Of a stretch of 64,000 bases of DNA, positions 4,980-61,432 are shown piece by piece; position 1 is the first letter of the stretch, and the number at the start of each line of letters is the position of its first letter. Position numbers and translations under genes: made by a program. Origin of the DNA: Ectocarpus siliculosus (Eukaryota > Sar > Phaeophyceae > Ectocarpales > Ectocarpaceae); contig FN649732.1 in NCBI GenBank assembly GCA_000310025.1, forward strand, positions 420,169 to 484,168, written 5' to 3'. A model generated the notes under the pieces. The model saw nothing but the letters and a program-made list of their open reading frames with translations, was not told the origin of the DNA and ran no database searches.

Positions 4980-7900
4980 CTACGACGCATACGCATACGC
5001 ACCGGCGTTCGTCGTGCAAGGGGCTATGCCGCACACCTCCCCGAGCTCGAGGATGGTACCCTCGCAGCAGTCCTCGGCCCCCAACCCGAGGTCCTTGCCA
5101 AACGTGGAGCAGCCCGGACCACCGCACTGTCCGCAACTGCGACGACACGATTGCATTGGTACGGGGCACCCACGGTTGTTGGTTGAAGTCACTCTGGTGT
5201 TAAAGATTTCGTGTGCACACGACGTGCTTCCAGACCCTCGCGGTTGGGAACACGGTCAAGGGCGTCCGCGTTGGAGCATACACGCATGGTTCCGAAATGT
5301 TCCTCGCGGACAGTACCTTCTTCGCGTTTCTGTTGATACACACAACACCTGGCAGCATCAGGAAGGAAACCTACATTATTTAACGTATGGTGCACGCTTC
5401 CAGGTAGTCGATATTGACATCCGTGGAAATCGTTGACAGTTTCCATGGAAGCCCACGGAAGCTGGCCACGCTTCCATGGAAGCTCAATGTACTTCCTCCC
5501 ATGGGAGCCACCTAACTTCCATGGAAGCCGTATGGAAGTTGCGTGGCAGATTCGCGCCACAACTTCCATGCGGCTTCCATGGAAGTAGATGTAACTTCCA
5601 TGGAAGTCGATCGGTTTCCATGGATGCAGTGGGTTGTTGCTTCCATGAAACTCTCGTCTTCAACTTCCACGGAAGTGCGAAGAGCTTCCATCGAAGTAAG
5701 ACTTTCATGGAAGTCCGTCCATCGATCCCCTCCACAAAGCTGGAAGGTACCTTCACGGAAGCACAATTACTCCCACGACAGTAACTTCTATGGAAGAAGC
5801 GTTGTATCGACTGGACAGCTAACTTCCATGAAAGACAAGCAACTTCCATGGAAGCAAATTCCACGGAAGCGTTCGTCTCGATTCCTTGGCAACTTCTAAG
5901 GAAACTCGGCAACTTCCATACAAGCCAGTCCAAGCACTTCCATAAAAATGTTTGAAGATGACGTCACGGGCAGACGATCTAAACACCAACTCCCGTCCTG
6001 ATAAACAGAGCACCAGCGACCAACCAAGCGTGGACCACACCACACATCCAGTCCACCTAAACCAACTGGGAAAGAAGGTACCTCGAATTGACCCTATAAC
6101 AAACCCTAACCCGAACCCAAACAACCCAGCAGACTGGAATGTCCACGCACGTGGCAAGCTCCAGGGGCTGATCAGCTGGGAAAGCACTTCCCCACTACTG
6201 GTCTTCGCTGCCGCAGGATCGAGACTATAATGGTTCCATGGAAGTCGCGTATAGTTTGCAGCTGGGGTCAGGGGGTATACTTCCATAGAAGTAGGGTGCT
6301 GATGCTTCCATGGAAGTAAAATATTATGCTTCCATGGAGGCTGGGCCGAATATGGCCTACTTCTTCCATCGACGTCCTGGAAGTGGTGTGGTGTGATCGA
6401 CTTCCGGGAAGCGCACCAAGCGACTCCGATAGGAGCTAGCTGACTTCCACAAAACTTCCATGGAAGTTGAAGCTTCCATGGAAGTTGATCGGGAACCCCC
6501 CGATACATAAACTTCCACGGAACTCGTCCGCACTGCCATGGAAGTTGTTTGCGAGCTTCCATGGAAGGTAAATCACACACTTCCATGGAGGAAGTCTACA
6601 CTACTTGCTTCCATGGAAGTAAAAGGCTACTGCCATGGAAGCTACACACATTTGTTAAATAACATAGGACGGCAACCAGGGGCTGCGTTCCCTACCCCAC
6701 CCGAATATCTGGTTGCTACGCACAGACATGGCCTAATGTGGACCACAGGGGTGAGAATAGGGTCCAAATGGCAATCAATCATCAGTCGGGGCCAAAAGAC
6801 TGACTCAGAACCATCTGAATAGACCTTTTTGTAGCCCAACCTGGGCTGTCATATTGGGGATACGGGGGTTCGGTCGGGTACATTCACAAACAACTACCAT
6901 GTATTTTGGGGTGTGGGGGAAAAAATGAGCCGTTATTGTTATAATGCAGGCATGCACTGCGGGGGGGGGGGGGGCGTGAGTGGCCCTGGATCCGAAATCT
7001 TGAGTTTAACAAGGGACGGCCGGAGCCAAAAAAGGGAAAGCGAAAGGGGGTTATTCAAAGGATGGATCATGAAAAACACCTGGCCACCCAACAAGCCCCC
7101 CCCTTGGACTCCATGCCCGGGGTACCCTCCCTGCCCCTCCCTTCCGCAATGGGCACATTTTTAATTTATTTTTTGAGGGGGAAACAAAAACCAAAATTAC
7201 CCCGGGTGTACCCCGGTGCGGAAAAAAAGTCCCGGTTATTTAAAAGGTTACCGGAAAAGGGACAATTTTTCCAACAAAAGCAACAAATTCCCGGCCCCAC
7301 TTATTTTAAATTTCCCCGGGAAAAAAAAAAAAACCATTTTTTTTCCTGCTACCCCAAATGGGTCAACCTTTTTCTTGGGGTTTGCCTTCCCATCAAGGGC
7401 TCCAAAACGCGTTTCCACCCCCTCCTTTTTCCCCGAACCTCCCCCCAAAAACAAAGGGAATTANNNNNNNNNNNNNNNNNNNNNNNNNNNNNNNNNNNNN
7501 NNNNNNNNNNNNNNNNNNNNNNNNNNNNNNNNNNNNNNNNNNNNNNNNNNNNNNNNNNNNNNNTTGGGGAACCCCCCAATACATAAATTTCCAGGAAATT
7601 CTTCCGCACTCCCATGAAAGTTGTTTGCGAGTTTCCAGGAAAGGAAATTCCCACATTTCCAGGGAGAAATTTTCCATTATTGGTTTCCAGGAAAGAAAAG
7701 GGTTATTCCCTGGGAAGTTACACACTTTTGTAAAATAACATGGGAGGGAACCCGGGGGTGGGTTTCCTTCCCCCACCGAAATTTTGGGTTGTTACGCACA
7801 GACAGGCCTTAATGGGGCCCCCGGGGGGGAAAATGGGTTCAAAAGGCCAATAATTCTTCATTGGGGGCAAAAAGATTGATTAAAACCCTTTTAAATAGCC

Positions 7901-10900
7901 TTTTTTTTACCCCACCTGGGGTTTTCTTTTGGGGGATAGGGGGTTTGGTTGGGGTACTTTCAAAAAAAATTCCCATTTTTTTGGGGGTGGGGGGAAAAAA
8001 AGGACCGGTTTTTTTTATAATGCAGCCATCCATGGGGGGGGGGGGGGGGGCGTGAGTGGCCCTGGATCGGAAGTCTTGAGTTGAGCAAGGTACGGCCGGA
8101 GCCAAGACAGGGAATGCGAGAGGCGGTTATTCAAAGGATGGATCATGAGACACACCTGGCCACGCAGCAAGCGCCGCCGTTGGACTCGATGCCCGGGGTA
8201 CCGTCACTGCACGTCGCTTCTGCAATGTGCACATGTTGAGTTGATTGTTTGAGGTGGATACAAAAGCCAATATTACCGCGGGTGTACGCTGGTGCGGAAG
8301 ATAGGTCCCGGTTATTGAGATGGTTACGGGATAAGGCACAATTTTTCCAACGAAGGCAACGAATTCCAGGCACGACTTATTTTAGATTTCCACGGTAGAA
8401 AGAACGATACCATTTATTTTCGTGCTACCCGAAGTGGGTCAACGTTTTCGTTGGGGTCTGCCTTCACATCAGGGGCTCGATAGCGCGTTTCAGCGCCGTC
8501 CTGTTGCCCGGAACGTCTCCAGAAGACAATGGGAATTAACGTCACATCGTCACAAAAAATCCAATCAATGCGGCTTTTTTTTGGTGAAGTCAAGCCAAGG
8601 TTGCAGAATTCTGACACAGCGGCAAATCACCATCGATAGGCATGAACCCGGGCATCTCCGAGGTTGTCGGAGATTCTGGGCTGTCCGTGCGGGCGGTCGA
8701 CGGAGACGGGGTATACCAAGCGTCTTCGCCGTGGTCGTCGTCGTCGCTACCCTCGTCGGCGCACTCGGTGGCGGTCTCGTCGTCGTCGTCGTCCAAGTAC
8801 TCGAACAGACTAAAGGCATAGTATCCGCCTGGGACGATCGGGGTGAGCACGGGGGGGCTACAGTACAGTCTGTGTTTCGGTGAAGAAATCCGAATAAGTG
8901 AGGAAGTATCCTGTTCGCGATTTTTGTTGGGAAAAGTAAAGGCGAGCGGGAATTGCATGCATAACCTTTCGAAATGCTGAGGTACGCAGTGACACGTAGG
9001 TCGTGTTTGTAGATGAGATACCCTACATGAGAGCGCAGGGAATGACTGGGTGGCATTTTTGATAGGATGCATTGTGCAGAAAAGGGGACGAGGAGGAGGG
9101 TGCAGAATGGGATGCTCATCGAATATTTATCAAGGTTCACAATGTCCTCCTACCGCGCTATTGGTTCGAGGACCGCTATGCCCTCTCCGGCTGGCCGGCT
9201 GGTAGGCTACCGTTCGCTCTCTCTGCCTCCCTTTCCGGCTCTCTTCCTAATGCCTGTCATTCCGCCCCTGGGTGTCGTGCTTCCGTCTCTTCCCTCGCCC
9301 TTTTAATTCGTCGCTCACCACAAGCTATCGCCGGGTCCCCGAAACAGCCGGCGATGCACTCGCCGTCCCCGTGCCGTTTGTACTCCTCGACGTCGTCGGT
9401 CGCACCACACCAGCACTCATCTCCGTACTTTTTCGTGTTACGTGAGGCGACGGCAGGAGTAGGCGGGCGAAAAGCCGAGAAGAGCAGCTATAGGGACGAC
9501 GTTGCACCAAGCACCGACACCGATACCAACAAGAATTCCAAGTTTTAATACCGCGCTTCGGCTGCTTGGTGAAATGCTTCCCGGGGGCGACGCAAGAGGA
9601 ACACGGCGATGATATTCTCACGGCGCGCTGCATCTCAACTCAGTGGAAGACTGCGCCGAATGCACTCAGCCCAAGCGTATACACGCACGCACACGAGAGT
9701 GAATGCACGCAACAACAACCCTTGGCGTTCGTGCGTGTGCTTCTTATACACATCCCTCACACCTGAGTGGCGTAGAAGCTCGAGCCGAACCTTTCACAGT
9801 AGACGCGGCAGACGTCCTGGGTCATGTTGTCCTGGAACTTTATCTTGTTTGCCAGTGCCCTGTCCTCCTGGTCATCTGCGAAGCAGCCTACATACTCGCG
9901 ACTGTCGGACGGCATTGGGCCGTCGAGTTTGTACAGGTCTGGACCAAAAACGAACAGAAACGAACGAGCAGTTAATGAGAGTACATGTGGTATACCAGAA
10001 AAACGGTTTGATAAGTGCACAATGACGAATGGTGTTGCATTGAATTAGCTCCAGCCTCGTTCGACCACGCGCCTGCGCCGATATTTTTCGACGTCGGAAA
10101 GGAAGAAGAAAAACGCACAAACCAATGAAACCTCAAGACCAGAGGAGTGTACTACTGTACAAGTCTGAAATAATCAAAGCATCGATTATTAGTACGCAGC
10201 GACAGAGTAACGGGGCTTACCGAAGGCATATAATCCTCCGCAAGTCTCAGCCTAATGGGGAAGGGAGATACGAAAACCAGAGAGGGAGCAGAGGAAGTGT
10301 GACATCGGGTTGGGTTGAAAAACGGTGATCTGTAGATTGTACGAATCGGGAACCACTTTGTTCATGCATGGGTTGGCCAACCTTATCTCCACGCGCTTAT
10401 CAATGAGGACATTAATGACATGTACGAAGGGAAACTACCCTCTAGACAAACCTTTCTAATGCATACCACGAGACTCAAATACGTCCTCCTGTTCCCACCC
10501 CGCCCCCCTGCCGCGCAAGCCAAGGCCCCAAACATTCAGAAATCTTGCGGGGGAAGTATTCAATAGGGCCGAAAGCAAGCGAGGAGTCGCAGCAGAGAGT
10601 AGTATCATTTTTTTACTAGGGGAATCGGCTAACCCAAGCCTGCCTGTGTACAGTAGTTCGCTCCATTGATATTTTTCATATGATTTCGTTATCCTCGCTA
10701 CAGTGGTTTGGAAATGGGAGCGTGAGTCTAAAATACCCGCCAGCGCGTTAGAGTATTTCTCGCAAATGACTCACGTCACATCCGTAGCAGCTAAGATCGC
10801 ATAGGTCCGCGTCGCCCTTGTCCGTCCCAGAGTGGCGAGAATAGTCAAGCTCCGTGTACCGGCTGCACCAGCATTCATACCCGTACTGAAGGGCCATGTA

Positions 10901-12903
10901 GGTGGCGCGTCTTCCGAAGCAGTGCTCGGCGCACATCTGGATGTGCGAGTGTGGAGCGGGGAAGGATTTGAACACGCATCGCTGACCACACGAACACGAC
11001 GCAGCTCGCCGTGGCCTGCTGCATTTTGAGTAAACAGACCGAAGAGGCTGGTTGTTTCAGGTTAGTTGTGCCGCGCGGCGAACCGTCCTCCGAAGGAAGG
11101 TTAATTCAGCACGTTGTGCGGGTCAGAGGCGCGCAGTCCATGCAAATGAAACCAAGTTCAGGGCCTCGCAGTCCATGCAAATGAAACCAACCGACACGGT
11201 ACAGACACCAACCGTGCAGAGTTTCATCCTGCTCGACGTAGCGCCGTCTCTGTCGCAATGACGAAACAGACAAGCACACCAACCCCTGAGGAGGCGGGGG
11301 CTAACAATAGTGATGCCGGGGTCTGATGCCGCCATTCATTCTGCTGCAGGATACGCACTTTGAACCATACGAATTGTATGGGATGTGGCTGGTTTCGCCG
11401 ACAACCCCAGGCCGCGAAGGGGGCCACTCACAGCGCTCGTCATAAGAGGTGACTTCATCAGGTGTCCGAGCACCCGGTCGGTTTTGTTGTCAGCAAAGCA
11501 TCCGATGTGCTCGTACTCGAGGGAGAATTCCTGGAGAGCAGTCGTAGTGCAAAACGCCCCAAAAAACACGAGTGGAAAAGAACAACCAAACAGTAATAAT
11601 CGTTTATCGGCGAAGGTTACCTACAGTACCGACTATCTGATACTCCACGAAGAATAGAAACACGTGCGGTGCAGGAACAACCCGTGCAGCAGGACTGCAA
11701 TGCACAAGAGGAATGAAACGCATTCTCAGTAGTTGACAACGTACAGCAGTCACATCGGAGACCGAAGAGCCCCATAGTAATAAACACCCCTTCGCGTGAG
11801 TATTGGGAAGTAATACGGTGGCCACAACCTACACGCCGCACCCGCTAATGGTTGTTAGGGCTCGTCCGAAGCCGTCCTGGTCTGGAGTGCACAATGTACG
11901 TACCGCCTTGACCCCGTCGTTGTTGCGCTTGCGGCATGGGCGAGATTTGCGGCTGGAGCGAGCGCCGTGATGTGAAGGGCCTTCATTTTTCTTGGAGACT
12001 TTCCGTTGGAGAGAGCTTCCTGTCTCAGCGACCAACCCCTCGCCCTGCACAACAACAGTCATGTAGTACTTACTTAATTCGTATGTCAAAACAAGGGACG
12101 AATCTGAGAGATCAAGGGGGAGGGGAAGGGGACCGCAGGGTGGGAGCCTGTCGTAGCCCATTGGAGTTTATGGACTTGAGCTAAAATGTAACGTGCAGTA
12201 TCGGCGTATCGGCGTATTGTCGGCATTGGCAGGAGCACGTCCTTTGACTTGCGTCCGACTGCCACAGTACGTAACCTTTTCTGTTCTTGTACGTGCCGTT
12301 CGTATATTTATATGCATAGAGGAGCCAACTGTGTGCTGCTTCCAGGACATGTCGCCGAAATGACCGCACTGTAGGCGAGCAGAAACATCAAGGGTCGCCT
12401 GCCTTCTGGCAGGAGGACTCTTACGGATAAGTGATCAAGTACGACGAGAAGAACACCTCGAGTGTAGATGTAATGCTGTACTGTAGTCTTTCATGATGTA
12501 GACAAACCACTACTGTAGAGAGATGCAAGAGACCATCAACGATTCTATGCTGTAGAGCAATGTAAGAGACCATCAACGAACCAAAATCCTGCAGTTTCCG
12601 CGGTCAACTACCGTCAGGACCAGAGGAAACAAGCGGGTCCTGCTCTTGATGCAACTTCGGCACGCTGGCCTGTCTGTATCAGCGCACACGCGCGCGCGGG
12701 CGAGCACACACACATGATACATGAAAGCGAATGACGACTACTGTAGGCTTCATCTCTGCCGGGTCCTTATTCGTATCTCTCATACGCCGAGAACACGTGT
12801 ATCGCACCTGAATTGAGTGGTCGCCCAGCCATACAGCCGCCGTCGAATCTTCCGCAAATGCGACGGGAGCCGCGCCGAGAAGGAGGGTCCAAAGCACCTT
12901 CAT
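4980..12903 (-). CDS. Secreted protein with two WSC domains and a C-terminal double-cysteine module, ten exons, 425 aa
   Basis: Minus-strand exons: 12903-12808, 12044-11904, 11530-11432, 10981-10775, 10251-10221, 9938-9763, 9427-9319, 8828-8631, 8219-8156, 5136-4980. They sum to 1,278 nt, exactly 426 codons, with all phases matching. Exon 1 is a signal peptide (MKVLWTLLLGAAPVAFA). A basic, Ser-rich linker follows. WSC 1 spans about residues 84-191 (EHIGCFAD, MCAEHCF, YGYECWCS, CGGLYAF) and WSC 2 about 205-295 (EYVGCFADD, VCRVYCE, YGDECWCG, ACGGYYAFS). Then come an acidic Asp/Glu linker, the module GIESNGGACCVAS, and a Cys-rich end (CGQCGGPGCS, EDCCEGT, CGIAPC). WSC domains are thought to bind glycans at the cell surface, so a cell-wall or matrix protein is likely. 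Exon 5 (31 nt) and the exon 8 donor are the least certain. The last intron contains a palindrome array and an assembly gap. Confidence 0.82.
5420..6660. repeat. Array of CTTCCATGGAAG palindromes in the last intron of the double-WSC gene
   Basis: The palindrome ACTTCCATGGAAGT and near variants recur dozens of times over about 1.2 kb at irregular spacing, often abutting. The spacers are unrelated to each other. Because the unit is its own reverse complement, the array looks the same on both strands and would form many small hairpins. It lies between exons 9 and 10 of the gene on the minus strand. Confidence 0.9.
6490..8540. other. Unmerged contig overlap: one locus present twice, each copy partly corrupted
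   Basis: The clean sequence at about 6,490-6,975 reappears in degraded form at 7,564-8,050. The clean sequence at about 8,035-8,540 appears in degraded form at about 6,960-7,463. Both copies change quality at a run of G (about 6,960-6,974 and 8,035-8,051). The degraded parts show stretched homopolymers and scattered substitutions, typical of reads failing past poly-G. The true locus is about 1.1 kb shorter than drawn, and open frames at 7.06-7.46 kb and 7.56-8.03 kb are meaningless. Confidence 0.9.
7464..7563. other. Assembly gap (100 N)
   Basis: One hundred N separate the two corrupted ends of the same locus. The gap has negative true length, since the flanks overlap. Confidence 0.99.
12513..12579. 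repeat. Short tandem duplication, 37-bp unit
   Basis: A unit containing AAGAGACCATCAACGA is present twice in tandem with a few differences. It lies in the first intron of the double-WSC gene. Confidence 0.75.
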
Positions 12904-13931
12904 CCTGTTGCCTGTGACACACACCACGCCATCAGCAGGAACCACAAGCCCGGAGGGTCCGGAAGCGTGAAGAGGATCGGACACAACAGCATTGGCATCA
13001 GTACCGCCTAACGCTCATCAGGGATGTAAAATAGAGTCGTTCATTTCGGCCACGAGAAGAGCGACACTTATGAACACACGTCCGCAAGGCCAGATGTCAC
13101 ACGCCCTTACCAACGGGTGGTGGAAAGATGGGGGTCTTGAGTTCGGCTGAACGATGACGGAGGAAAGAGTAGGTTGTGGATGTGGGTGGTGTGGGGGTCT
13201 CGTGACAACGATCACGAAACACACACACAAAGAGAGAGAGCGAGAGAAAGAGGGGGGGTTGGTATGTACAATTTGTGTGAAACAGCTTTGATGGGTAGAA
13301 TGCTACTGTACTAAATGCTTCGTAAATATCCGCCGGCATCCCTCAAGAAACAGTTCTGATGGATATTATATTTTCCCACAGATTCGGCGGATGTTGGGGG
13401 GTTGACACCTCGCCAGTTGCTTACGTCTCGTATCTGCCATATCGTCTGGGAAAAGACTGGAAGGGATCACACCCATCAATCCTGCTACATAGTACACAGC
13501 AGCGTACCGTTCATTACAACACATGCTGTGAAGGAACCTGATACTGCACCATGTAGTCCGAACTGCTGCTGATGAGGTTGTTGTGCAGTCCATCCTTTGT
13601 AGTTGTGCATTCATCCTTTAGTCGAGACTACAGAAACAAATGTGCATATGCATACCACGACTGATGATGGTGAAGATGGGAGATCAGGAGATCGCAGACG
13701 GTGGCCGAGCTTATACATCCGAAAAACTTGGTTCGGCTGTTGTGCCAGGCAATGACGTCGCCACCGAGTCCTATCCTGACCCCACCTACTCAAGCCTCCC
13801 CTTCCTCCTACTCTTGCCCCTCTTACTCCCGTCCTTCGCCCATCCGGTTGCTTGTCTGCATGTCCTCTTGTCTGTCATGAGTCATAATGCATTCCCGAAC
13901 AAATGAGTTTTAGTGATTCACTGGGCGAAGA
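12904..13931. other. Upstream region of the double-WSC gene; no gene seen
   Basis: This is the putative promoter side of the gene starting at 12,903 on the minus strand. It holds short purine and GA-rich runs near 13,225-13,260. I see no convincing exon, TATA box or repeat. The Copia element begins at 13,932. Confidence 0.4.
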
Positions 13932-14263: not shown

Positions 14264-14347
14264 CGCTAGCGTATGACACGTCGTCTACGAGATTCGAGTC
14301 GAGCTTAGTTTGGAGTATCGCTTTGCGGCGATCAGCAGCAGCCACCG

Positions 14348-17215
14348 ATGAGCGACACCGAGCAAGATCGAGTGAGCGCCCGACTAGCAGAGGAGGAAGC
14401 CCGGATCAACTACTTGGTCGAACAGAGGGTAGAAGCAAGACTGGCCGATATGTCGAGGCAAGAAGCAGAGGAGCGGAGGACAGATGACGTCCGGACCGGA
14501 AGAGAGCACGAGGATCGCCACCAGCAACACGCGGGGCGGCCATCGGCCAACCCGACGACCGACGAAATCGCCCGCACACTCGCCGACGCCCTCACCGGTC
14601 GACTTCACGTCTCATCAGGGGACATGGGTAGAGTACCCATTAACGCAGGGACGGTTCGAATGACTGAGACTAAGCGCCTAGCGCCTTGGGATGGTGTTTT
14701 CAAGCAAGGGGAGGATGAGCAGGCTAAGTTTTTGATTTTTCGATCGAACATGGTAGCTATGTTTGCCCAGGAAGGAGTGCGTGACGTAGTACTGACTGAA
14801 GAAAAAATTCCAGTTGGGAAAGAAGGCGTGAGCATGGAGGAGATGCGTAGGGTGCATAGCGCCGACACCGGAAGGATCTGCCTGTCCAACAACGTCGTGT
14901 GGATCAACCGCCGCACCGCCGTGCCGGCGCCGGTACCGGCCAGCGGGGGGGGCTCTTCGGTCACCGCGGCGCCCTCGCCGGCCGCCGCCGTTCCTGCAGC
15001 CGCTGCCGCACCGCCACCGCCATGGGCATCGCGGACGTACACCTACACCCCGCCCACAGCGACCACCGCTTCGCCGCCGCCCACTTCTCCGTCGATCTTC
15101 ACAGGGTCCGGAGCCGCGTCGCCGATCTCCACGGCGTCTTCGAGTGCACCGCCGTCCACCGCAGCCACGCCGCCCCGTCCACCGCCGACACCCCCGCCCG
15201 CAAGCGCCGCCGCTCCCGCTCACCCGCCGCTTTCACAGCGAGCGGTCAGAGAATTGGGCGAGAAGGAAACCAGAGTGCATGGCCGTACGCGCGGCGACCG
15301 AGTGCGCTTCATGGATGAGCAACAGCAACCGCCGTCGCCGTCAGGTGGCGGCACCGCTCTCCAACACCGCCTTGGGCTGCTGTCGATGATGGGCAAGGAT
15401 GCGCTCGTCTCGTCGCTCGCCACCCGGGAGGCCGTCGATCAAGGACGTCGAGACCTGCCACCGTCCGCCAGCATCGCCCCTCCCGCTCCCCCACCGCCGC
15501 AAGATACGAGTTTAGCAGGCCATGGGAGCGGGGGGGCCGCAGGAGCTGGAGGGCCGGGGGGCCTGCACATGTTCGCAGCAATGTTCGCCACCCGCGAGGA
15601 CGTGGAAGCCACTCTTCGTGGCAAGCGCCCTCCTGACAAGATGCCGGACCTCCCTCACTGCCTCGCCAGCGACCTCCGCGTGCCGAAAACGTTCAAGGAG
15701 GCCATGCGGTCTCAACATTCAGAGTTGTGGGATGATGCAGTCGGTCGGGAGTTTTTCGGTCTGTTGGATGCAGGTACTTTTAGTCCGGTGTAGCAACCAG
15801 TAGAAAACTTCATCAACGCCAAGTGGGTATTCAACTGTAAGGCAGACGAGTACGGATGGCCGACGAAATTCAAGGCAAGACTTGTAGCGCGGGGGGACAT
15901 GCAGAGGGCTTCGATTGATTTTGGAGAATTGTTTGCACCCACCGTATCCGTGTCTAGTGTGCGTTTGTTGGCAGCTTTGGCATGTGAGCAGAACCTTGAC
16001 TTGTGTCATTTCGATATTCAGCAGGCGTTTGTGCAGTCTGAGCTTGAAGAGGATGTTTTCATGCGTCTCCCGCAAGGTTGTGGTAGGTTATCTGGACTGA
16101 TCGTGAAGCTATGCAAGAGTCTGTACGGTTTGAAGCAGGCGTCACGACAATGGCATGCGCACCTGACGAGGTGTTTGTTACTTTTAGGATTTGTGCAGTG
16201 TTTGGCGGATGCATGTGTTTTTCGATTTATGGAGGATGGATGTGTGATCATGATCATCGTGGTCCACGTGGATGACATTTTTGCCGTAGGGCAGAAGGAG
16301 AGATGTGACAAGTTTGGCAGAGACCTCAACGAGATGGTCCCCGTGAAGAACCTTGGGGAGTTGAGGTGGTACTCCGCGTGCTTTTACCAGAGAGATCTAG
16401 AGAGAGGCCTTTTGAGGATCTCGCAGCAAAGGTTTGCAGAAGAGTTGGCTGCAGAGTACGGCGTAGAGTGGGGGAAGAGTGTGCCCTTGCCTGTGAGCAT
16501 GAAGCTCACCGACTTTGACGAGGACGAAGCGTGTGCTGATGTCCCTTTCCGCGAGTTGGTAGGATCCCTGATGTGGTTGGCCACTCAAACCAGGCCGGAC
16601 ATCGCGAATGCAGTACGAGCAGTAGCGCGGTATTGCGCGTCTCCCAAGATGGTGCACTGGAAGGCAGCACTTGGTATTTTAGGGTACGTGCGTAGGACGA
16701 GTTGGATGGGGATTACATTTGAGAGGGGTGTGGTGACTGGCATGAGCATGCAGGTGTTCGTGGATGCTGACTATGCGAGCAAGGCAGCAGACCGTAGGTC
16801 GGTTTCAGGAGGACTAGTGATGTGTGGGGGTGGGTGTGTGACTTGGTTTTCGAGGACGCAGAAGTGCGTTACGCTTTCCACAACGGAAGCAGAGTATGTG
16901 GCAATTGCCGACGTCTTGAAGGAGGTGCTTTTCTTGAGGCAAGTTTGGCGTTTTATGTTGCCAGATGCAGGTATGCCGTGCATTCAAATCTTCGAGGATA
17001 ATCAGGGAGCGATTCAGATTGCGCACAACCCGATCACGAACTCAAACTCGAAGCACATTGATGTACGGCATCACTTTATCAGGGAACTGGTAGAGAGGAA
17101 GGAGATTTCGATTACTCATGTGGCGTCGGAGTTTCAGCATGCAGATTTCTTGACGAAGGCTATCAGCAAGGAATCTTTTGCGTTGCACAGAGACTTTGTG
17201 ATGAATTTGCAGTGA
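14348..17215 (+). pseudogene. Copia Gag-Pol fusion remnant with one in-frame TAG
   Basis: Frame 14,348-15,793 and frame 15,899-17,215 are the same reading frame, broken only by TAG at 15,791-15,793. The N-terminal 170 residues are Gag-like (charged coiled region, then TKRLAPWDGVFKQGEDEQ). Near 14,860 it jumps to the end of the integrase region (GRICLSNNVVWINR), followed by a long Ala/Pro-rich linker and the reverse transcriptase start (FKEAMRSQHSELW). After the stop come KARLVARGD, FDIQQAFVQSELEEDVFMR, SLYGLKQASRQWHAHL, VVHVDDIFAVG with its catalytic DD, and RNase H (FVDADYAS, STTEAEYVA, DNQGAIQIAHN, KHIDVRHHFIRE). Protease and integrase have been deleted. Apart from the TAG the reverse transcriptase looks intact. 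Confidence 0.9.
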
Positions 17216-26004: not shown

Positions 26005-28132
26005 TCAATCCGGCACGTGTCGTGCCACTCGGTCCGTCTCTTCTCGTTTGCTTTCTTCCCTCGCCGTCTCGTCCGTCTCCTGCCCCCCTCCCGCCCCATT
26101 GGTTGTTGGCTTGTGGTTTCGTTTGAGCGCTCGTTGTCGGCTGGCCTCTTCTTCCTTCTCGTGCCAGGAGGTCATGAACCTCTCAGCTCCCTGCAGCACC
26201 GCCGCATGCCAGGGTACTCCCTCCTCCACGTTCGCGGCTTCCGTCCATCTTAACTTCGGTGCCGTGTCTTTCGGTACGGGAATTCCGAGACAACATGGGT
26301 CGGTTTTCGTAGATCCGTGGTCGGCCCCGAATGCCTTCAGGTCGTCGAGCACACACTTCGGCCAGTTCTGTTCCTGTCCCCCCCTACGTGGCTTCTCCCC
26401 CCCCGCCAGCTCGCCGAGCATCAGTCGTTTCGGGAGTCGCCCGTCCGGCTGCCTTGCCAGTGCTCCCGCGAACAGTAGGCGTCGTTGTCGGATCGTGGCT
26501 TCAACGCTCTGGCATTCGACCCTCTTCAGCGTCTGGGCGTACGAGAGCTTCCGGTAGGTGTCTTTCTTGCGCTTGTACCCGATAACTCGAAGGAGCAGTC
26601 GGTGGTGTGTCGACCGCAGCGTCTGATAGTGGCCGCTGAGTGGTGACCATGTCATGCAGCCGTACAGCAGTGCCTCCATCGCCTCGGCCTGGAGGAGGCG
26701 GATCTTGAGTCGGAATGGCGCTTTCGGTCTGTCGAAGAGCTCCTGGCCATATCGCCTGAGGCACGCCCACGCTCCTCTGCTCCTGTAGCTGATCTCCCGG
26801 GTGAGGTCGCCATGTTCGTTGACGAGGCCACCGAGGTACCGGAACTCGGTCGTCTGGGCGTATTTCTGTCCCGCGGCTTCGATGGTCAGTGGTGGAGGAG
26901 GCGGGGGGGGCTGTGATGTTGCAGTCGGCTTGTCTTTCGCGCGCATCAGGAGCGTCTCCGTCTTCTTCTCCGACACCGTTAGCCCGAACTCTCCGAACAC
27001 CTCAACGATGATGGTCATCATTCTCGCCAGTCCTTCTGCAGACCTCGATACGACGCCGGCATCATCGGCATACAGCATCCCCCATAATGCCCTCCGTACT
27101 CGGTCAAGGGGTGTCTCCTCCCCCCCGTCCGCTTCCGTCTTCCCCTCCTCCAAGCACACCAGATTCCGCAGAACAACACCATCCTCGCTGAATCGGATAA
27201 CGACGACCTCGAGGACCTCGGCGAAGAAGAAGTTGAACAGCAGTGGGGATAGCACACATCCTTGTCGCACGCCCTGTGTGACGAAGAACCAGTCCGATAG
27301 TTCTCCGTCGTCCATGCGCACCCGGGCCCGCATTCCATCGTGGAATTGGCGGATGACTTTGATTAGCTTCGGTGGAATCCATAGCATCTATCGGTCCACC
27401 GAATCATAAGCCTTCTTCAAGTCGACGAAGCACATGTAGAGCGGTATTTTCTTTCTCCGCCCCAGCTCCTGGAGGCGGCGCACGACAAACAGCATGTCGA
27501 CGGTGGATCGCCCGGGTCGAAATCCGCACTGTTCCTCCGGGAGGATGTTGTTGGCTTCGCAGAAGGCGCTTAGACGGTTGGTGATGCTCTTGATGGGGAC
27601 CTTGCCTACGTGAGATAGTAGCGAAATCCCCCTGTAGTTGTTACAGTTGGACCGGTCACCTTTCTTGTACAGCACCTTGATGGTTGCGTCCTCCCACTCT
27701 TGGGGGGATATCTCCTCCGTTCCACACCTTGACGAGGATGATATGGAGGTGTCTCAGGACAACGGGTTCGTCGTCATCGATCTTGAGCAACTCGGCAGGG
27801 AGGGAGTCATGGCCGGGTGCCTTCCAGTTCTTGAGGCCTTTCGCTGCCCGTGCCACCTCCTCGAGGTCTGGAGTTGACAGTGTCGCTGGCCGCTGCGTCA
27901 CTCGTTCGATGATGTCTGGGTTCAGGGTGGGGGATTTGGTGTTGAGTAGGGTGCTGAAGAATCTCGCCCACCGTTGGAGGATGTCGTCCCTGTTCCGGAG
28001 CAACACGCCGTTCTCATCCGCGACGAACTGCTGTCCCCCCGCTTGTCTCCCGCTGAGGCCCACTGATCTCTTGAGGTGTTGGTACAGTCCTCTCATGTCG
28101 CGATCTTTGTAGATTGCTTCGAGTTCAGTCAC
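26005..28132 (-). pseudogene. LINE reverse transcriptase, interrupted by a frameshift and a TAG
   Basis: From 28,132 down, the sequence gives the pre-RT region (GLKNWKAPGHDSLPAELLK). After a frameshift near 27,700 come [35 protein letters not shown] and [13 protein letters not shown]. Then TAG at 27,390-27,388, and in the same frame [17 protein letters not shown], the catalytic [10 protein letters not shown], and a thumb/C-terminal region with [13 protein letters not shown]. Polymerase aspartates are present, so decay is recent or partly due to sequence error. Confidence 0.88.
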
Positions 28133-29312
28133 ATATCCGTCCAGGTGGGCATAAATGCCCGTTTCGACTGCTAGCCACTCCCTTACACGCTGCTTTGAGA
28201 GTTCTCCACGTTGCTGGGTTCCAGTTGCCCCTCATCGCCCGGCGCGCTTCCCGCCGTTTGGTAAGGGCCTCCTCCAGCACTGCTCTCGCCTCTGGGGTCT
28301 CACACCACTCCTGCGTGCGGCGTCTCCGCGGTTCCTCCCCTAGGGTCGTCCGCGCTGCTTCGAGGAGAGCATTGGTAAAGTCGGTCGCCAATTCCGCGGC
28401 GGTGGTTGTTCGCTCATCCAGTCGTGTGTCGAGGTTGAGGAGGAACCGATTAGTCACCGCACCCCGTGCTGCTTCGAACTGTAATTCCCGTCGGTTGAAT
28501 TGTTGCTGTTTCGGTTTAGTCCGGACTGCACGGTTGTGGGCAAGCCTGCCACCGAGGTTGACGGTGGCTACTACCATGTTGTGGTCTGAGTCTGCTTTGA
28601 CTGGGCGAACCGGCTGGGGGGTGACAACCACGTTAGATACTCGGCCGTAATGTGCCTGTCTTGTCAGGATGTAGTCAAGGCGCTTGCAATCGTTTCCCGA
28701 CACACCGTTGTATGTGTGACATATTCCGCCCTTGCGTGTCTCGAAGAACGTGTTCGTGAGAGCTAGCCTGTTTTCCGTTGCGAAATTCAACAGTAGCATG
28801 CCATTGTCGTTGAGCTCATCACGCCCGTACATTCCTATTACCCTTGCGTCCCCTCCGTCCAACCTATCTCCCGTCCGCGCGTTGGCGTCCAAAAGGACAT
28901 ACACACATTCTTTGGAAGGGATCCTCCGCACGAGACTGTCAAGTTTTCCCCAGAACACGCGCTTGCTGTCGGCGGTTGAAGGTTCGGTTGGAGCATACGC
29001 GGCTACGAAGTTGACCGCTCCACGGTGGCCTGCCAACAGAAACCTCATGGCCATAAGGCGTTCGTCGATAAACTCCGTAGTGAACGTGGATGTCTTGCAC
29101 AGTGACTCTTTGACGGCTATCCCCACACCATGGACTCCACCAGTCTCCGTGCCACAGCAGAACACCCGGAAACCCGCTGCTGCAAATTCCGTTCGACCTG
29201 CCCTCCGTGTCTCCTGTATTCCTACCACCGATACGTTTTGTCTCGCTGCCTCGTGTAGAATGCTGTAGGCTCGTCCGTATCCATTGGCCCCGTTTACAGC
29301 CAAAGTCCGCAC
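28125..29312 (-). pseudogene. LINE endonuclease domain (APE type)
   Basis: The frame shows the ordered motifs of an exonuclease III-like endonuclease: VVGIQETRR with the metal-binding Glu, GVHGVGIAV, the YAPTEPS loop, VYVLLDANARTGD, SGNDCKRLDYIL, and the terminal SDHNMVVATV. The protein would nick target DNA to prime reverse transcription. After about 28,200 the frame goes wrong; the true continuation (REWLAVETG) is one base off, so this frame's last residues are spurious. The catalytic residues that can be seen are intact. Confidence 0.88.
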
Positions 29313-29699
29313 ATTCCAGGTTGCTACCCTAAGAAGTTGACCCTGCTGTCTCTTTCGCGCGGCCCGCGCTGCTCTCTTAGCTAGCCTACGCGCCGCCCGA
29401 CCCCTCCTTCTCCTCCATCTCCCCCTCTTTTTTTGTTTTTTTGCTATTTTTTTGCGAAAACTCGGGCTAAGATGATAGTTATCCCGGTTCTTGCCTTCTT
29501 CCCCATAGAGTTATCTTCTTGTCCCGGAGCGGTGTGGCCCTCCATCTCTGGACTCTCTCCTTTCCTCTCTCTGGGGCATACCCCCACGGCGTGCGGTCAC
29601 TCCGCTACCCTCACCGTGCTCTCTGCTGCTGCATAACCCCGGTGTCCAAGCCGGGGCGTTAGGATCCAGCCTCATTTTGCAGCTACCAAAGCTGGCGGT

Positions 29700-32357
29700 T
29701 CACGAGCTACGGGGTTCCCACATTATCGTGAAAATGGATTCACTGTTATAACAGTGAATTTCACTGTTATAACAGTGAACTGTCACGCTTACAACGGTGA
29801 GGAGCACTCTTATGAAAGTTGAGAGCACTCTTATAACAGCGTGCTCCTTGATCGCTTTTCGCTCGCTCCTAGCCTTCTGTTGCTTCTCGAGTGCCGCCAT
29901 AGACGCCCTCCACGCTGCCTTCGAGGCGTCCGACATCTGGCGTGCGGTGGCTGCTATCTCGGCTTTTTTCTTCTTGTCGTCCTTGATTCTCGCGGTTTTG
30001 ACGGCGTGGTCTTGGTCTTTCTTGCTTTTCGGGGGCTTCTTCGCACGGCCCTCTCGCGCTGCCGCAGCCCCCCCCCCCTCCCTCCGCCGTCGCCGGAGGC
30101 ATGGCAGCCGCTGCTTTCCCAGCAGTAGCCGCGGCCACGGTGGCGGCTGCTTCTCCCCCGCCCGCCACCATCACCGCCATCACAGCGGCAGCGACAGCAG
30201 CTCCAACTGCCGCAGAGGACGCCCCCGCCGTCACCTCCGATGTGTCTGCTGCTATAGACGGTGCCGTCTTCTCGCTCTTGTTGGCACCCGGCACCGCACC
30301 CGCCACGGCGGTGATGCCGCCGTCATCTTGCGTCAGGTCCACGTTGCCTGCTGTCGCTGTCGATGCCGCCGCGCCTTTTTTGACGCCGCGCTTCGGCCTC
30401 GCGGCCACCGGCGCTGCCGCTCTCTTCTTGGCCTTCTTGATGGCACCCGGCGCGGTGCCGGCCACAGCGGTGACGCCGCCGTCATCTTGCGTCAGGTCGA
30501 CGTTGCCTGCTGTCGCTGTCGATGCCGCCGCGCCTTTTGTGACGCCACGCTTCGGCCTCGTGGCCCCCGGCGCTGCCGCTCTCTTCTTGCCCGTCTTGGT
30601 AGCACCCGGCGCGGTCGGCTTCGCGGCCCCCGGAAGCCCCGGTGTGCCGCCGCGCTTCTCGGCAACTGCCGACCTCGTTGGCCTCTTAGGCGCCGGGGCC
30701 GCGGTTGAGGGGACCACTTCTTGTTCTTTTTCGTCGTCGCTGTCGTCGCTATAATCTCGAAGGATGGGTGCTTGGAAGAACCTATCGTCCACACCTCCAT
30801 CTGGCTCGTTGGCCACGTCCAACACCGCCCAGTCTGGAAACGCAGCAGCAGTGGTGCCGGTCAAACTGGTGGTAGACCGGAGAGCCGACGTCGCTCTCCT
30901 CTTGCCTGCAGCACGAACCACGTCGTCACGCTGCACAAGAGCAAATGGGCACAGGGGGGTGAGGGCAGGTGTAGCGCGCAGCGTTCTCTCCAGTTTAGGC
31001 ATTCTGTCGTATGAATGTTGCACAGCCGTGGGTGATCGTGTGGGTTACGCCGAAGGTCATAGTAAGCGCGACCACACCGAGAGGACCCGGAGAGGCGAGC
31101 CCTAACGCTCAAAGTCTAACAAGCACTGGCCTTGAAATGCGAAAAGAAGAGCACTCTGTCGACCTGCCCTACCGCCAACCCTGCCTAGTCGTACGAATGG
31201 CCTACAAACATGGGCACGTGGAGGTCACACCCCGGGAAAGTTTTGAACGTGATGTCGCCTTTCCCTACTTCCCATACCAGTGGAATTAGCTTACCCCGTG
31301 AAGCCGAGAATCGGAACCCAAAATGCACGAGAGGCGGGAAGGAGAGAGAGCTGCACGCGAACCACACCTTGTGGTGCGGCTGGAAACTGCCAGAGCTGGC
31401 AGGCACTTTGTCACATTCTTGAAGGAAACACAGGTCAAATATGGTCTACACATGTACTCCGATTATCATGCTTTTCACTCACCAGCTGTGCTCCAGCGCC
31501 TTTGTCACGAATACTCTTTGCGAAGTCGGCCACCAATTTCTCGAGCTGGTCGCAGCCTGGAACGTACGAGCCATCCGGGATACAACCCGGGACGAACTCG
31601 AAACACTCCGGGTAGTTGCCCCTTTCCTCTTTGGGGGAGCAGACGCACGGCGAAAGGATGTTGTGCAAAGATGTGAACATCGAACACCACAAATAGCAAA
31701 TAGGGTATGCTTGACGCGGCATTCCTCCTATCGGGGCTACCACCAGCGGACTAATCAACGTGACTGACACCAACCCCAGGCACCATTCACCAACGTAAGA
31801 CACCGGTCAGCAGGCGAGATGTTCACCTTTCGTTAATATGCCCTTCACGATGGCCATCCGAAAGATAGGGTATTCGCAGTCGGGCCTTTCGTAGCAAGGC
31901 GCAAGAACGAACGGGTAGGCGGGGAAATCGGCATGATATTTTCGGATGACTACAGTGTGAGCAGCGTCATTCCGTCATCTGCATAGCCCCCTGTTGTGTG
32001 TTCGGCAAGCCATGCGGGGAACTTGTACAGGGAGGTGATGCGATAGCGTCGGGAGCATAGGTATCATATGTCTCCTATCCTTGAATCGTGCTTTGAGGCG
32101 GCCCCTCGAACAAACACATGTACGCCAAGCGGCAACCAGAATGTAGCCATGCGCCGCCCAAAATACAACAAATCAACGCGATGTCGGCCGATTCAAACGG
32201 GCGATTTGACCCTGCATGCGTTCGTGCCCACCGGCTACCTCATCACTCACATCTGCATTTTGTTGACACTGAAGGGCAAGAGGTTGGGATCGCGATCCTC
32301 CTCCGACCGCACTTCTGTCACGAACCCCCGTATCCAGGGTCTCATTCCAACCCTAAG
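29700..32357 (-). CDS. Unassigned multi-exon gene inside the TIR transposon, with K/A/P-rich C-terminal region
   Basis: I do not recognise this protein. Exons supported by splice sites are 32357-32251, 31949-31827, 31628-31483 and 30930 downwards. The last two junctions are phase-consistent; the first is not resolved. Readable segments are GMRPWIRGFVTEV, DPNLLPFSVNKMQ, FPAYPFVLAPCYERPDCEYP, ECFEFVPGCIPDGSYVPGC and LVADFAKSIRDKGAGAQL. A long last exon holds an acidic patch (DYSDDSDDEKEQE) and repeated basic units (KKRAAAPGATRPKRGV, GNVDLTQDDGGVTAVAG). At an 11-C run (30,068-30,078) the frame probably shifts. The other frame continues with a Lys/Ala-rich helix (AAWRASMAALEKQQKAR) and runs through the left TIR to a stop just outside the element. 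It may be the transposase or an accessory DNA-binding protein; a captured host gene is the alternative. Confidence 0.5.
29711..29758 (+). repeat. Left terminal inverted repeat
   Basis: It is 48 bp, pairing without gaps with 34,222-34,269 (40 of 48 positions). It ends in the palindrome CACTGTTATAACAGTG, followed by a second copy and diverged copies to about 29,835. Confidence 0.88.
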
Positions 32358-33087
32358 CTGTGTTGCAACCAAACAAAATTCGACGGACGCGGGGACACGA
32401 CGGGACGTGAGCAGCCGAAAATAATCAAGGAGTCGACGAGGAGCAGCAGGAATGGACGCACAAGACAGCAGCTAGCGGTTTCCACGTCCAGGTGCAGACA
32501 CCTGTACGTCCGGTTTAGCGCAGGCAACCACAAGCGGGTGTCCAAGTGCTGTCGACGTGCTACGTGTTGTTGCGATATACTGTGACAGATTAACTGCGCT
32601 ATCTTCAATTCGCCGGAGGCCCGCGACGATCCCACGCTCTGGCGGACAAGCCCCGAAGGACAGGAAGATTTTCGGTTGAACTCAAGTCGGGCGGAAAGCA
32701 GCAACAGCTGGCTTGAAGGTAGAGCGTCAAAATGTACATGTGTGCTCACCCGCCCTCTTGTCTTTTGTGTTGACCCCGGAAAAAGAGTTCACTTTTTATA
32801 ATTGTTGGTTCACTTTTATAACAGTTAGTTCACTTTTGTAACAAGTGATTCTCACTTTCATGACAGAGACTTGGCGTTTCCCTGGCGACGGCACAACAGG
32901 GTGTTTTCATTAATGCGAGACAGCACACACGAAACGTCCAGGGTGTACATGTTCTTGTGCGATCTGGTCTGTCTCTTGTCTTCCGACTGTCTTGCCAACA
33001 TGCACGCCCACACCATCAAAAGACCGATTTTTGCGCCCACGTCGTGTTTTTTTTTTTTTTTGTAGGCATGCTTTTCCCCTGCTTTTC

Positions 33088-33216
33088 TAGGCTTTGGGGT
33101 CGTCGTCAAACAGATGCCTCAAGTGCTGAGGGACTTCTTCCTCAACCACGCCATCCTTGTTCGGAATGAGACCCTTCTCAGGTCCAAACTGATGAGCCAG
33201 CACCCTAACTTCGATG
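33088..33216 (+). CDS. Possible C-terminal exon on the plus strand of the TIR element
   Basis: A strong polypyrimidine tract and CTAG acceptor precede a frame reading GVVVKQMPQVLRDFF, NETLLRSKLMSQHPNFDG and then a stop. The amphipathic, Leu-rich composition looks coding. No partner exon upstream is certain; a frame near 32,880-33,000 is a candidate. No family is recognised. Confidence 0.3.
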
Positions 33217-33607
33217 GTTGAGATCGGTGGTGGAGAGATGCTGTACATGTTCTGGTTGTGGTGTAACCTTTGCGTTTGGTCAGCAGTTCACCGCTGTTTT
33301 TGCGGGTCTAGATTGGCATTCACCGATCGTCGGATAGGACCCCCGACAGAGACCTACTGTCACGGGTTGAGTGGTTACTGTCATAGGTTGAGTGGTTCAC
33401 TCAACGACCTTCGTCGAGGTTGTTCATCTGCCGTGGGGTTCATTTGCGTCGTCGGAGGAAGGCCCGCGGTGGTATCAAAGGTGTTGTCGGCGGGTGTAGT
33501 GTGCCTTTATCCCTTTACGTCTTGCTCGCGGTATGTGCGAACCTAGGTGAACCAGCCGCACACACCCGTGAGAATCGTTCTAGCTGCACAGGGGGTTCGT
33601 CTTATTT

Positions 33608-33910
33608 ATGCGGTGCACAACACGTACGGGCTTTGCTGCCCGAGGATCGCCATATCGCAATTACCTTCGTCACGTCATGCGCCTGGAACCTGTAACTGAA
33701 GTTGCACATTTCTATGATGCAATGATGCGCCTGGGCAAGTATGTGCTCGTCCCATCGTTCCGTTTCTTGATGAGAGCTGCAGAACTGCTCCAAAATCAAA
33801 GTCATTTTTACCGCCTGGCTGTTAAAGGTGACTTGCACGACAGTCGTTATACTTTTATGAAAGTCCCCAAACTGACTGTTAGTAATGTTCACCCACCGTC
33901 ACTTTCATAA
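33608..33910 (+). CDS. Small open frame running into the right subterminal array
   Basis: The 100-residue frame contains VMRLEPVTEVAHFYDAMMRL and VPSFRFLMRAAELLQNQSHF, which read like protein. It ends within the palindrome array. The opposite strand is also open here, so the strand is not certain. No domain is recognised. It might be an exon of a second transposon gene. Confidence 0.25.
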   Translation: MRCTTRTGFAARGSPYRNYLRHVMRLEPVTEVAHFYDAMMRLGKYVLVPSFRFLMRAAELLQNQSHFYRLAVKGDLHDSRYTFMKVPKLTVSNVHPPSLS

Positions 33911-34245
33911 GAGTCAGCTGACCGTAACAACAGTGTTTGAACTTTCATGATGGTCAGCTGACAATCGTTTCACTTTTTTAAAAGTCCCCAAACTGACTGC
34001 TAGTAATGTGCACCCACCTCACTTTCATAATAGTCAGCTGACTGCTATAACAGTGTGTGAACTGACACCTCACTTTCATAAGAGTCAGCTCACTCTTATG
34101 AAAGTGAATGAACTGACTGTCATAACAGTGAAATAGCGATGACTGTTATAGGAGTGAGCCGACTGTTATAACAGTCAATTCACTGTTATAACAGTCAATT
34201 CACTGTTATAACAGTCAAATATTCACTTTTATAACAGTGAATCCA
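33835..34245. repeat. Subterminal array of ACTGTTATAACAGT-type palindromes
   Basis: At least fifteen copies or half-copies of the motif (forms include CACTGTTATAACAGTC, CACTTTCATAAGAGTC, ACTTTTATGAAAGT) fill about 400 bp inside the right end. The left end has a shorter set at 29,745-29,835. Such subterminal repeats are usual transposase-binding sites in several DNA transposon families (inference). Confidence 0.85.
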
Positions 34246-34269
34246 TATACAAGATTGTGTGGGAGCCCG
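34222..34269 (-). repeat. Right terminal inverted repeat
   Basis: This is the inverted partner of 29,711-29,758. It is bordered on the outside by CGAGCTAC, the same 8 bp that precede the left end. Confidence 0.88.
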
Positions 34270-34371
34270 CGAGCTACCCCGATCTCACGACAGCAGTAAC
34301 TCCCAACCGCCAAACTCAAGGATCCCCCTCTCAACAGTGCTAGGGACCGTATATCCGTCTATATATAATGG

Positions 34372-59496: not shown

Positions 59497-60980
59497 CTAG
59501 CATCCGAAATCTTTGATCCGTTGGAGAATGGAGATGAACTTGTGCTGGCCCAAATGCTTACTCGAGATATCGGCCAGCATGGCTTGAGTTGGGACGTGGT
59601 GAACCGTGATGCGGCGCCGCTTGATCAGTTCCCGAAGGAAGAAGAATAGCAGGGCGATGTGCTTGATCCTCGAGCTGAATGAACATGGAGATGGCGGCGA
59701 GACTGAGAGCTCCTGAGCTGTCGCTGCGGATGGAAATAGACTTGAAGGAGATATCGACTTGAGCTCCATGAAGAGGTTGGAGAGGTACACGGCCTCCCTG
59801 GCAGCGTAGCTAATGGCTTGAAGCTTGCTCTCGACGGTCGATTGGGCCGTGAGAGACTTGCGTCTTGGTTCCGAAGCTGATGAGACCTCCTCCAAGGAAG
59901 AACAGGTACCCTGTGGTAGACTCCTGTTGTCCGGGGTACCTGCGAACGAAGCGTCGGCGAATGCTGCAATGCAGGATTGCCCTTGCTTGAATACGATGGG
60001 CAAGTCCGGCGTTCCGCGAAGGTACCGCAGCACGTGCTTGGCGGCAGCCATGTGGACCTGAGCAGGCTTGCTCCATGCCCTCGTCAGCTGGTTGACTGCG
60101 CAACACAGGCCGTACCTGGTGCATTGAGCCAGGTAGAGCAGGCTGCCTTTGATGCACTGGTACAGTTTGGTGTCTGCCGCTCCGAGTTGCTTGTCCGCTG
60201 GCTGATCAGTCGAGAGTTCCGGTCCATATCCTGGAGTGCTGACGGGGTTGCAGTTCTCCATGCCAAACCTTTCAGGGATATTCTTGATGTAGTTGTTCTG
60301 CGAGGCAGTCAGCGTGCCTTCCTCGTAGTTGCGCGTGACTTGCATGCGTCGAATGAGGAGACTTCCGCCATGTCCGTCATTTCGAAGCAGTCGTGGAGTT
60401 CTTTCTTGAGGTCAGCTGCGAGCTTGGGGTCCTTTCCGCTGATGAGGATGTCTTCGACGTACAGCGTCAAGATGACGAGAGTGTCGCCGCTTCCGTATAT
60501 TAATACGCAAGGGTCGGACTGTGTGCGCCTGGATCCGATCACTACTAGCACATCTCCGATGGTGTCGAACCAGAGCACTGGCGAACATGAAAGCCCATAA
60601 AGACTGCATTCGAGTTTGTAGACCACGATGCCCCCGGTCGCGGGGTGCTTCGTGGTTTGTGCTGGGGCGGGCTTGACCCAACCGTCTTTGTCAATCGCAG
60701 ACTGCAGAAACACCACCGCGACGTCCATCTGATATACCGGCCATCCTTGTTCGCATGCTATAGCGAGGAAGGTGCCAACGCTCCTGATGCGGCACACCAG
60801 TGCGTAGCTCCCCCCGTAGTCGATGCCAGACTCCACATGGACTTGAACCACCAGCCTGACCTTGAACCTTCCGTTGGCTTTCTGTTTGAAGACGAACCTT
60901 GTACCGAGGATCTTCTCTTCCTTGGGAATGCTGGTGATGGGGACATACTTGTAGACCTTGTGCTGCGCCAGACTGTCCAT
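59497..60980 (-). pseudogene. Copia reverse transcriptase and RNase H, with altered catalytic motif
   Basis: Frame 60,980-60,309 shows ILGTRFVFKQKANGRFKVRL, VYQMDVAVVFLQSAID, LECSLYGLSCSPVLWF and the polymerase motif as LYVEDILI, where an active enzyme has two Asp. After a frameshift near 60,340 the frame to 59,497 gives the connection region (SLLYLAQCTRYGLCCAVNQL) and RNase H (AAFADASFAG, STVESKLQAIS, HHVPTQAMLADI). It is inactive as read. Confidence 0.87.
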
Positions 60981-61432
60981 CTCCTTTGCGATAGCTGCTT
61001 TCCACTGTAGCGTTTGTGGCGAGTTGATGGCTTCCTTGAGGTGTTCGGGATATTGATGCGCTCCTCCTCCAAGGATCGTTGCTGCAATGGGGAGCCTGTG
61101 GCGTACACGTAGGCCCGCGATGCTGGGAGCAATCCCTCGTCCAGATGAGCAACATCCGGAGCGGCGCTGGCGTGATCGTGGTAGGTCTTGTTGGCCAAGT
61201 CCAACAGCTGTTCAGACGTCAGCGCGCTGGGGTCGGGCCGCATCGTAGTGGACGGCATGCATCCACTTCCGCTGTCGTCCATGGTGATTTCCAGGGGACT
61301 AGGTGCAAGGGAGGGGTCGATCGAACCAGAGGCCTTCGCCTCCTCCTGGTGGCGGCGCGGGTCACTTCAAGTGACCGCGGTATCCCCTGGGTAGGCTTCG
61401 GCGCGCTGCCTGGTAAGAAACTTTCTTCCTGT

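Follow-up and report, generated by a model that had tools for sequence, protein, structure and literature searches.

What kind of element lies between the 48-bp inverted ends found in a brown algal contig, and which gene moves it? The window analysed here is a stretch of 64,000 nucleotides from Ectocarpus siliculosus (GCA_000310025.1, contig FN649732.1, positions 420,169 to 484,168 of the forward strand). There the original prediction, made from the sequence alone, had described a complete DNA transposon with an 8-bp target duplication, a multi-exon gene of unknown type and no obvious known transposase. We are confident that the element is non-autonomous and derives by internal deletion from a giant cut-and-paste transposon family, whose transposase carries CxC5/CxC6 clusters and three acidic motifs. 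This confidence would be unchanged if the CxC5/CxC6 branch stood next to KDZ rather than within it.

Structure of the element and its insertion site

The two ends of the window copy pair at 40 of 48 positions without gaps and are flanked by identical copies of CGAGCTAC, as expected for the predicted DNA transposon. Both limits had been placed correctly, although the predicted span (29703-34277) counts the duplication in and the element proper covers 29711-34269. In a genome search with the ends, the check proposed with the original prediction, each 80-bp end was used as a query against 189 Mb in 492 contigs (C-numbers below are contigs of this assembly). We found at least 26 left-type ends (40 scored of 69 candidates, the other 14 scored being right-type) and at least 40 right-type ends (40 scored of 62 candidates). 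Pairing by place and orientation yielded 19 two-ended copies, the window copy included, with sizes from 0.67 to 25.7 kb, and the flanks of all of them were read. Exact 8-bp duplications surround 14 of the 19 (13 at the aligned ends, and C9 after a 1-base reset of the ends), and two others have near matches (7 of 8 positions in C23; 7 nt with a 1-nt offset in C33). The duplicated 8-mers vary between copies. Since the ends recur across the genome, the inverted ends and the duplication exceed chance.

Empty sites were searched with the joined flanks carrying a single CGAGCTAC. All 40 scored places (of 94 candidates) match across the junction at 95-99% identity. Six of these 40 were read: five have the single 8 bp unchanged (...GAGCTAC followed by CCCGATC...), and the sixth has one substitution within it. 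The empty sites belong to copies, elsewhere in the genome, of a long interspersed nuclear element (LINE), which lies on the minus strand in the window and was identified by eye. They confirm the nested insertion in a LINE 5' leader that had been predicted. The six sites remain alike past approximately window position 34360, where the window LINE copy ceases to match; the insertion thus probably went into a LINE copy that had been cut short within the leader. As for this LINE copy itself (26008-29510, minus strand, to approximately 34360), sequences 95-99% identical to its leader are found at no fewer than 40 places, and it therefore looks young.

A chance 8-bp match next to the inverted ends of a fossil hairpin could appeal only to the small number of bases. 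The exact duplications in 14 of the 19 copies, together with the empty sites, refute this explanation, to which we give practically no credence.

Internal deletions

Two main blocks of the window copy align, at about 96% identity, to the copy in C6, which has 14,830 bp. Two stretches of the C6 copy are absent from the window copy, at about C6 129-4991 (4.9 kb) and 7747-13138 (5.4 kb). The C3 copy (10.7 kb) gives a contiguous 98% match to the window copy straight across the second deletion junction, and about 6 kb separate its left end from this match. Since the C3 and window copies have this junction in common and are flanked by different duplications, movement took place after the loss of the gene core. 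The second deletion is probably the older one, and the deleted form probably transposed afterwards.

The window copy is thus a non-autonomous internal-deletion derivative of a giant family with copies of approximately 14-26 kb. The description as a complete element does not hold, since 4.9 and 5.4 kb of the C6 copy, including the transposase core, are missing. That no known transposase is visible is correct for the window copy alone, where the gene core has been deleted; full-length relatives do carry a transposase gene.

The transposase gene

We traced the gene by concatenating candidate plus-strand exons and querying the genome with them. Most of a multi-exon transposase gene lies in the second missing stretch; its last two exons survive in the window copy. 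The exons have 107 genome matches at E <=0.01, copies of the same family included, and many of them are diverged. These diverged relatives show about 29-52% identity in the best-matched exon, genome-wide. The motif LNSSRAESSNSW of the window exon is also present in a diverged family, and the C6 counterpart of the last exon shows 52% identity to a diverged family. Adjoining one relative of the transposase, long frames (L044:6940-8999) have a zinc-knuckle-like motif and are, by eye, probably a retroelement gag.

Comparing the exons of the seven diverged loci that were read, we find these conserved blocks, from first to last: a CxC5-like region, xxDG, a C..H...H.C region (CxC6), CG...G...L...EG...V..AL...PD..RP..L.YDxAC, RFH, NSSxAESxNxW and MPxVLxxFxL...NExLL..KLxSQHPxFD. 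The last three, from RFH onward, were seen only in the window family and in a family represented in C33, C24 and C188. Two families agree in the order of the motifs xxDG, YDxAC and SxAES, and by analogy their acidic residues would form a putative RNase H-like catalytic triad of DDE type.

Ratios of nonsynonymous to synonymous substitution rates (dN/dS) were estimated for nine loci in 36 pairs; they are rough, with 13 pairs saturated and many dS values above 1. The ratio is 0.18-0.59 between families (18 pairs with estimable dS) and 0.54-0.96 within families (5 pairs). Low values between families and higher ones within them suggest long-term selection with near neutrality among passenger copies, as expected of a transposase. 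This is the pattern of a gene under purifying selection between families that would be selected only in its active lineage. Codon-position counts between C6 and close copies gave too few differences to separate coding from non-coding sequence, and a codon-usage scan of C6 returned scattered short pieces only. No relatives were found in the viral contigs or the prokaryote genomes searched. Of two sequence searches against PDB, one gave two weak irrelevant matches and the other none.

Subterminal palindromes and a second family

Both ends are accompanied by arrays of a palindrome, ACTGTTATAACAGT. Counting variants with up to 3 mismatches, the window copy has 19 sites, one of them isolated at 32812-32825, while C6 and C16a have 26 each, nearly all near the ends. 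Of those in C6, 12 fall within 360 bp of the left end and 13 within 409 bp of the right end. One hundred first-order Markov sequences served as control for the window copy, with a mean of 0.17 (at most 2); the Markov mean for C6 is 0.35.

The C33/C24/C188 family is a second giant family with a related transposase, and its ends begin with GGGTGATGTACATTATC and CAGTCATATACACTATC. Duplications of 8 bp flank two of its three copies: a script detected GAGTATAG, and AAGGTAAC was recognised by eye in the flanks. Long palindrome arrays of its own, CCCATGGG/GGGTACCC, lie beside both ends, and in both families ACATTATC occupies bases 10-17 of the left end. The two families thus keep a common plan but differ in their palindromes. 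We regard the arrays as putative transposase-binding sites.

Movement in trans

Over their main aligned blocks the C6, C16a and C10 copies show 97.6-99.3% identity, and their duplications differ. None of the three yielded the first acidic motif, and the second reads YGxAC in all. In C9 the first two motifs are present and the third was not found in the 7-8 kb read. A pattern search recovered all three motifs together in none of seven copies of the window family (window, C6, C16a, C10, C9, C33 and C113), with C9, C33 and C113 covered over 7-8 kb, and with the runs of N in C10 and C16a lying outside the gene. Near-identical copies with broken motifs and different duplications indicate movement with a transposase made elsewhere. 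Judging from these sequences, C6, C16a and C10 must have moved in trans, or else the motifs were lost before their shared ancestor spread, which we take as an equivalent outcome.

We propose that the transposase of an active relative would bind the subterminal palindrome arrays and the inverted ends, and would cut the element out by cut-and-paste chemistry. Joining to staggered cuts 8 bp apart would then produce the 8-bp duplication, and faulty repair at microhomology may give rise to the internal deletions.

Family assignment and alternative explanations

The element is probably of KDZ type, in a CxC5/CxC6 branch. Pfam labels both CxC5 and CxC6 as associated with KDZ transposases, and the 8-bp duplication of Zisupton and Dileera and the terminal inverted repeats of Zisupton are both found here. 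Among the comparisons listed with the original prediction, KDZ/Zisupton is the best fit. In the genome, CxC5 has 6 matches, none over the curated cut-off, at places 78-87% like the exons of the window family. Of the 11 places listed for CxC6, 4 score above its cut-off (C21, C424, C30 and C296); for C21, C30 and C296, other relative exons are no more than 2.5 kb away, and the match in C424 falls outside the list of relatives.

Several results weigh against the explanation given here. The proteins tested against Pfam are joined exons with unverified transcripts. The C9 exon concatenate matches CxC5 (E 4.6e-5, 24.0 bits) below the curated cut-off of 26.9 and CxC6 (E 5.1e-5, 23.9 bits) below that of 27.5, so the cysteine cluster of KDZ is recognised in the window family by E-value but not by cut-off. 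Concatenates of two other families, in which the CxC5 exon was not included, gave weak CxC6 matches (E 0.015 and 0.052), and shorter pieces scored less (CxC5 8.2e-4; CxC6 0.24 and 0.027). The KDZ core model (PF18758) has no match in the exon concatenates at E <=10 and none in the genome, where the exons are split by introns and control genomes were equally silent. As this model matched nowhere, the name "KDZ-type, CxC5/CxC6 branch" is provisional. On the structural side, three of the 19 two-ended copies (C12, C25a and C59) have no duplication, nor has one of the three copies of the C33/C24/C188 family.

The silence of the core model would also suit a separate transposase lineage with a core of its own, not KDZ, in which CxC5/CxC6 proteins acquired 8-bp duplications convergently. 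A study of Pleurotus, moreover, reports that KDZ elements do not lie close to the CxC5/CxC6 frames there, and that CxC2 is the cluster of intact KDZ copies (PMC7641404). Against this stand the association of both clusters with KDZ in Pfam and, according to the passages available, the 8-bp duplications of Zisupton, Dileera and Cryptococcus KDZ1 and the inverted ends of Zisupton and KDZ1 (PMC12730594, PMC12810828). The proteins of Kyakuja, Dileera and Zisupton are themselves described there as too diverged for ordinary alignment (PMC12730594). We consider a separate lineage unlikely, though credible, and retain the KDZ-type assignment. A hAT-type element with a diverged transposase deserves hardly any credence. 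Duplications of 8 bp are typical of hAT elements too, whose ends carry the signature CAGRG or TAGGG. The ends of the window element begin with neither, and the exon concatenates match CxC5/CxC6 with no hAT or BED domain at E <=10. A Pfam scan of all six frames of the C6 copy, in which each stop was written as X, found no match at E <=1, probably because the exons are short. It also argues against hAT, weakly, since CxC5/CxC6 were missed likewise.

The minus strand raises another alternative, in which the plus-strand gene would be a passenger and an alanine- and lysine-rich frame the working gene, encoding a DNA-binding accessory protein or an unrelated transposase. The multi-exon gene of the original prediction is most likely this frame (29872-31044) with its probable upstream exon (31435-31806). 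Such a frame exists, but it is not the transposase, whose exons lie on the plus strand. In favour of a working gene, an open stretch of at least 370 aa is kept in 7 of 11 copies read, and the position of the frame is constant. It is, however, low-complexity sequence in a G+C-rich stretch, the six-frame scan gave it no Pfam match, and its 46 matches at E <=0.01 are confined to stretches with the ends or DNA of the window family. The ratio of the proportions of nonsynonymous and synonymous differences (pN/pS) is scattered from 0.32 to 2.5 over 21 pairs, and constraint is not evident; six of these pairs involve the window copy and are inflated by its frameshift, and the other 4 of the 11 copies, with a longest open frame of at most 350 aa, were left out. 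A working gene on the minus strand is therefore very unlikely in our view, and the frame may be an accessory gene or a chance one.

Features of the window

The features discussed are collected in Table 1. No Rfam family matches the window at the gathering score. Elsewhere in the window, long frames at 14309-17212 (plus strand) and 59500-61211 (minus strand) resemble Copia-type retrotransposon polyproteins by eye. In the genome we also recorded a very large expansion of EsV-1-7 repeats, with at least 150 matches over the cut-off (150 scored of 880 candidates), for example in C30, C476, C191 and C45; these repeats have proliferated in brown algae, according to the passages available (PMC12477816), and their abundance marks the host as a brown alga.

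Table 1. Positions of the transposon, its parts and the host LINE within the window.
Feature	Position	Strand	Basis or remark
Transposon copy, internal-deletion derivative	29711..34269	+	4559 bp; ends, duplication, 19 two-ended copies, alignment to C6 copy
Left target-site duplication, CGAGCTAC	29703..29710		single in the empty LINE sites read
Right target-site duplication, CGAGCTAC	34270..34277		identical to left 8-mer
Left terminal inverted repeat (GGGGTTCCCACATTATC...)	29711..29758	+	40/48 pairs with right end; recurs genome-wide
Right terminal inverted repeat (CGGGCTCCCACACAATC... on minus strand)	34222..34269	-	40/48 pairs with left end; recurs genome-wide
Left subterminal palindrome array, ACTGTTATAACAGT variants	29742..29840		approximately every 21 bp; 4 of 19 sites in window copy
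Right subterminal palindrome array, ACTGTTATAACAGT variants	33851..34238		14 of 19 sites in window copy
Deletion junction 1	29813..29840		about 4.9 kb missing; element 103-128/129 versus C6 124-128/4992
Deletion junction 2	32560..32572		about 5.4 kb missing; CGTGTTG microhomology; transposase core removed
Retained transposase exon, acidic motif LNSSRAESSNSW (putative third catalytic residue)	32589..32718	+	splice sites and phase agree with C6
Retained last transposase exon (FGVVVKQMPQVLRDFF...SQHPNFDG, stop)	33091..33221	+	splice sites and phase agree with C6
Second frame, alanine- and lysine-rich	29872..31044	-	420-423 aa in C6, C9, C113; frameshifted in window near 30070
Probable upstream exon of minus-strand frame	31435..31806	-	open here; upstream in several copies, some with stops
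Host LINE, endonuclease-like frame; leader carries insertion	28128..29510	-	identity by eye
Host LINE, reverse transcriptase-like frame	26008..27387	-	identity by eye

Relation to known systems and significance

The closest setting is that of the eight giant KDZ families of Ectocarpus, of up to 30.3 kb. According to the passages available, giant families in that alga often possess additional genes, their transposase is often pseudogenised, and they were inferred to move in trans (PMC12477816). The brown algal host, the giant size, the broken transposase and the movement in trans are all shared with the window family, which is possibly one of these already named families. The comparison is by description alone, since duplication length, ends and type of cysteine cluster of KDZ do not appear in those passages (PMC12477816).

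Other KDZ groups were compared through parts of the respective papers. Zisupton and Dileera share the 8-bp duplications with the window element, and Zisupton also the inverted ends (PMC12730594); the transposase of the window family differs in its CxC5/CxC6-like clusters and is unrecognised by the Pfam KDZ core model. Kyakuja, which has accessory genes in fungi, resembles the window family in its KDZ grouping, provisional for the latter, but has 7-bp duplications, CA..TG termini and no inverted repeats, on all of which the window element differs (PMC12730594). The Cryptococcus elements KDZ1-KDZ3 have 8-bp duplications (4-8 for KDZ2/KDZ3), inverted ends and a cysteine-cluster transposase, as does the window family. 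They are unlike it in carrying CxC1, in their size of about 9-11 kb and in their inverted ends of 139-241 bp (PMC12810828). The poMSH4 insert of Pleurotus ostreatus is likewise inserted multicopy DNA with a CxC5/CxC6 frame (6.8 kb, 739 aa). It was linked to a Copia element, and the terms "target site" and "inverted repeat" are absent from the main text, as far as this was available (PMC7641404).

Within the titles and abstract openings searched, a scope outside which supplements and most subscription papers fall, no description of the ends, palindromes and CxC5/CxC6 clusters of such an element was found. We tentatively suggest, with rather more doubt than conviction, that CxC5/CxC6 proteins are the transposases of a distinct and widespread giant branch. 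Its members would have 8-bp duplications, imperfect inverted ends in which bases 10-17 hold a ACATTATC-like core, and family-specific palindrome arrays by each end, and the Pleurotus insertion would be one of them. If so, a Pfam domain now called "associated" would become a defined transposase, and the Pleurotus insertion, at present ascribed to the help of Copia, would be reassigned.

Exact ends, duplications, empty sites and relatives are here supplied for a giant transposon lineage that is little documented structurally in the literature found, and copies without the transposase core still move. The family-specific palindrome arrays and the CxC5/CxC6-type transposase together make a candidate recognition system that can be tested.

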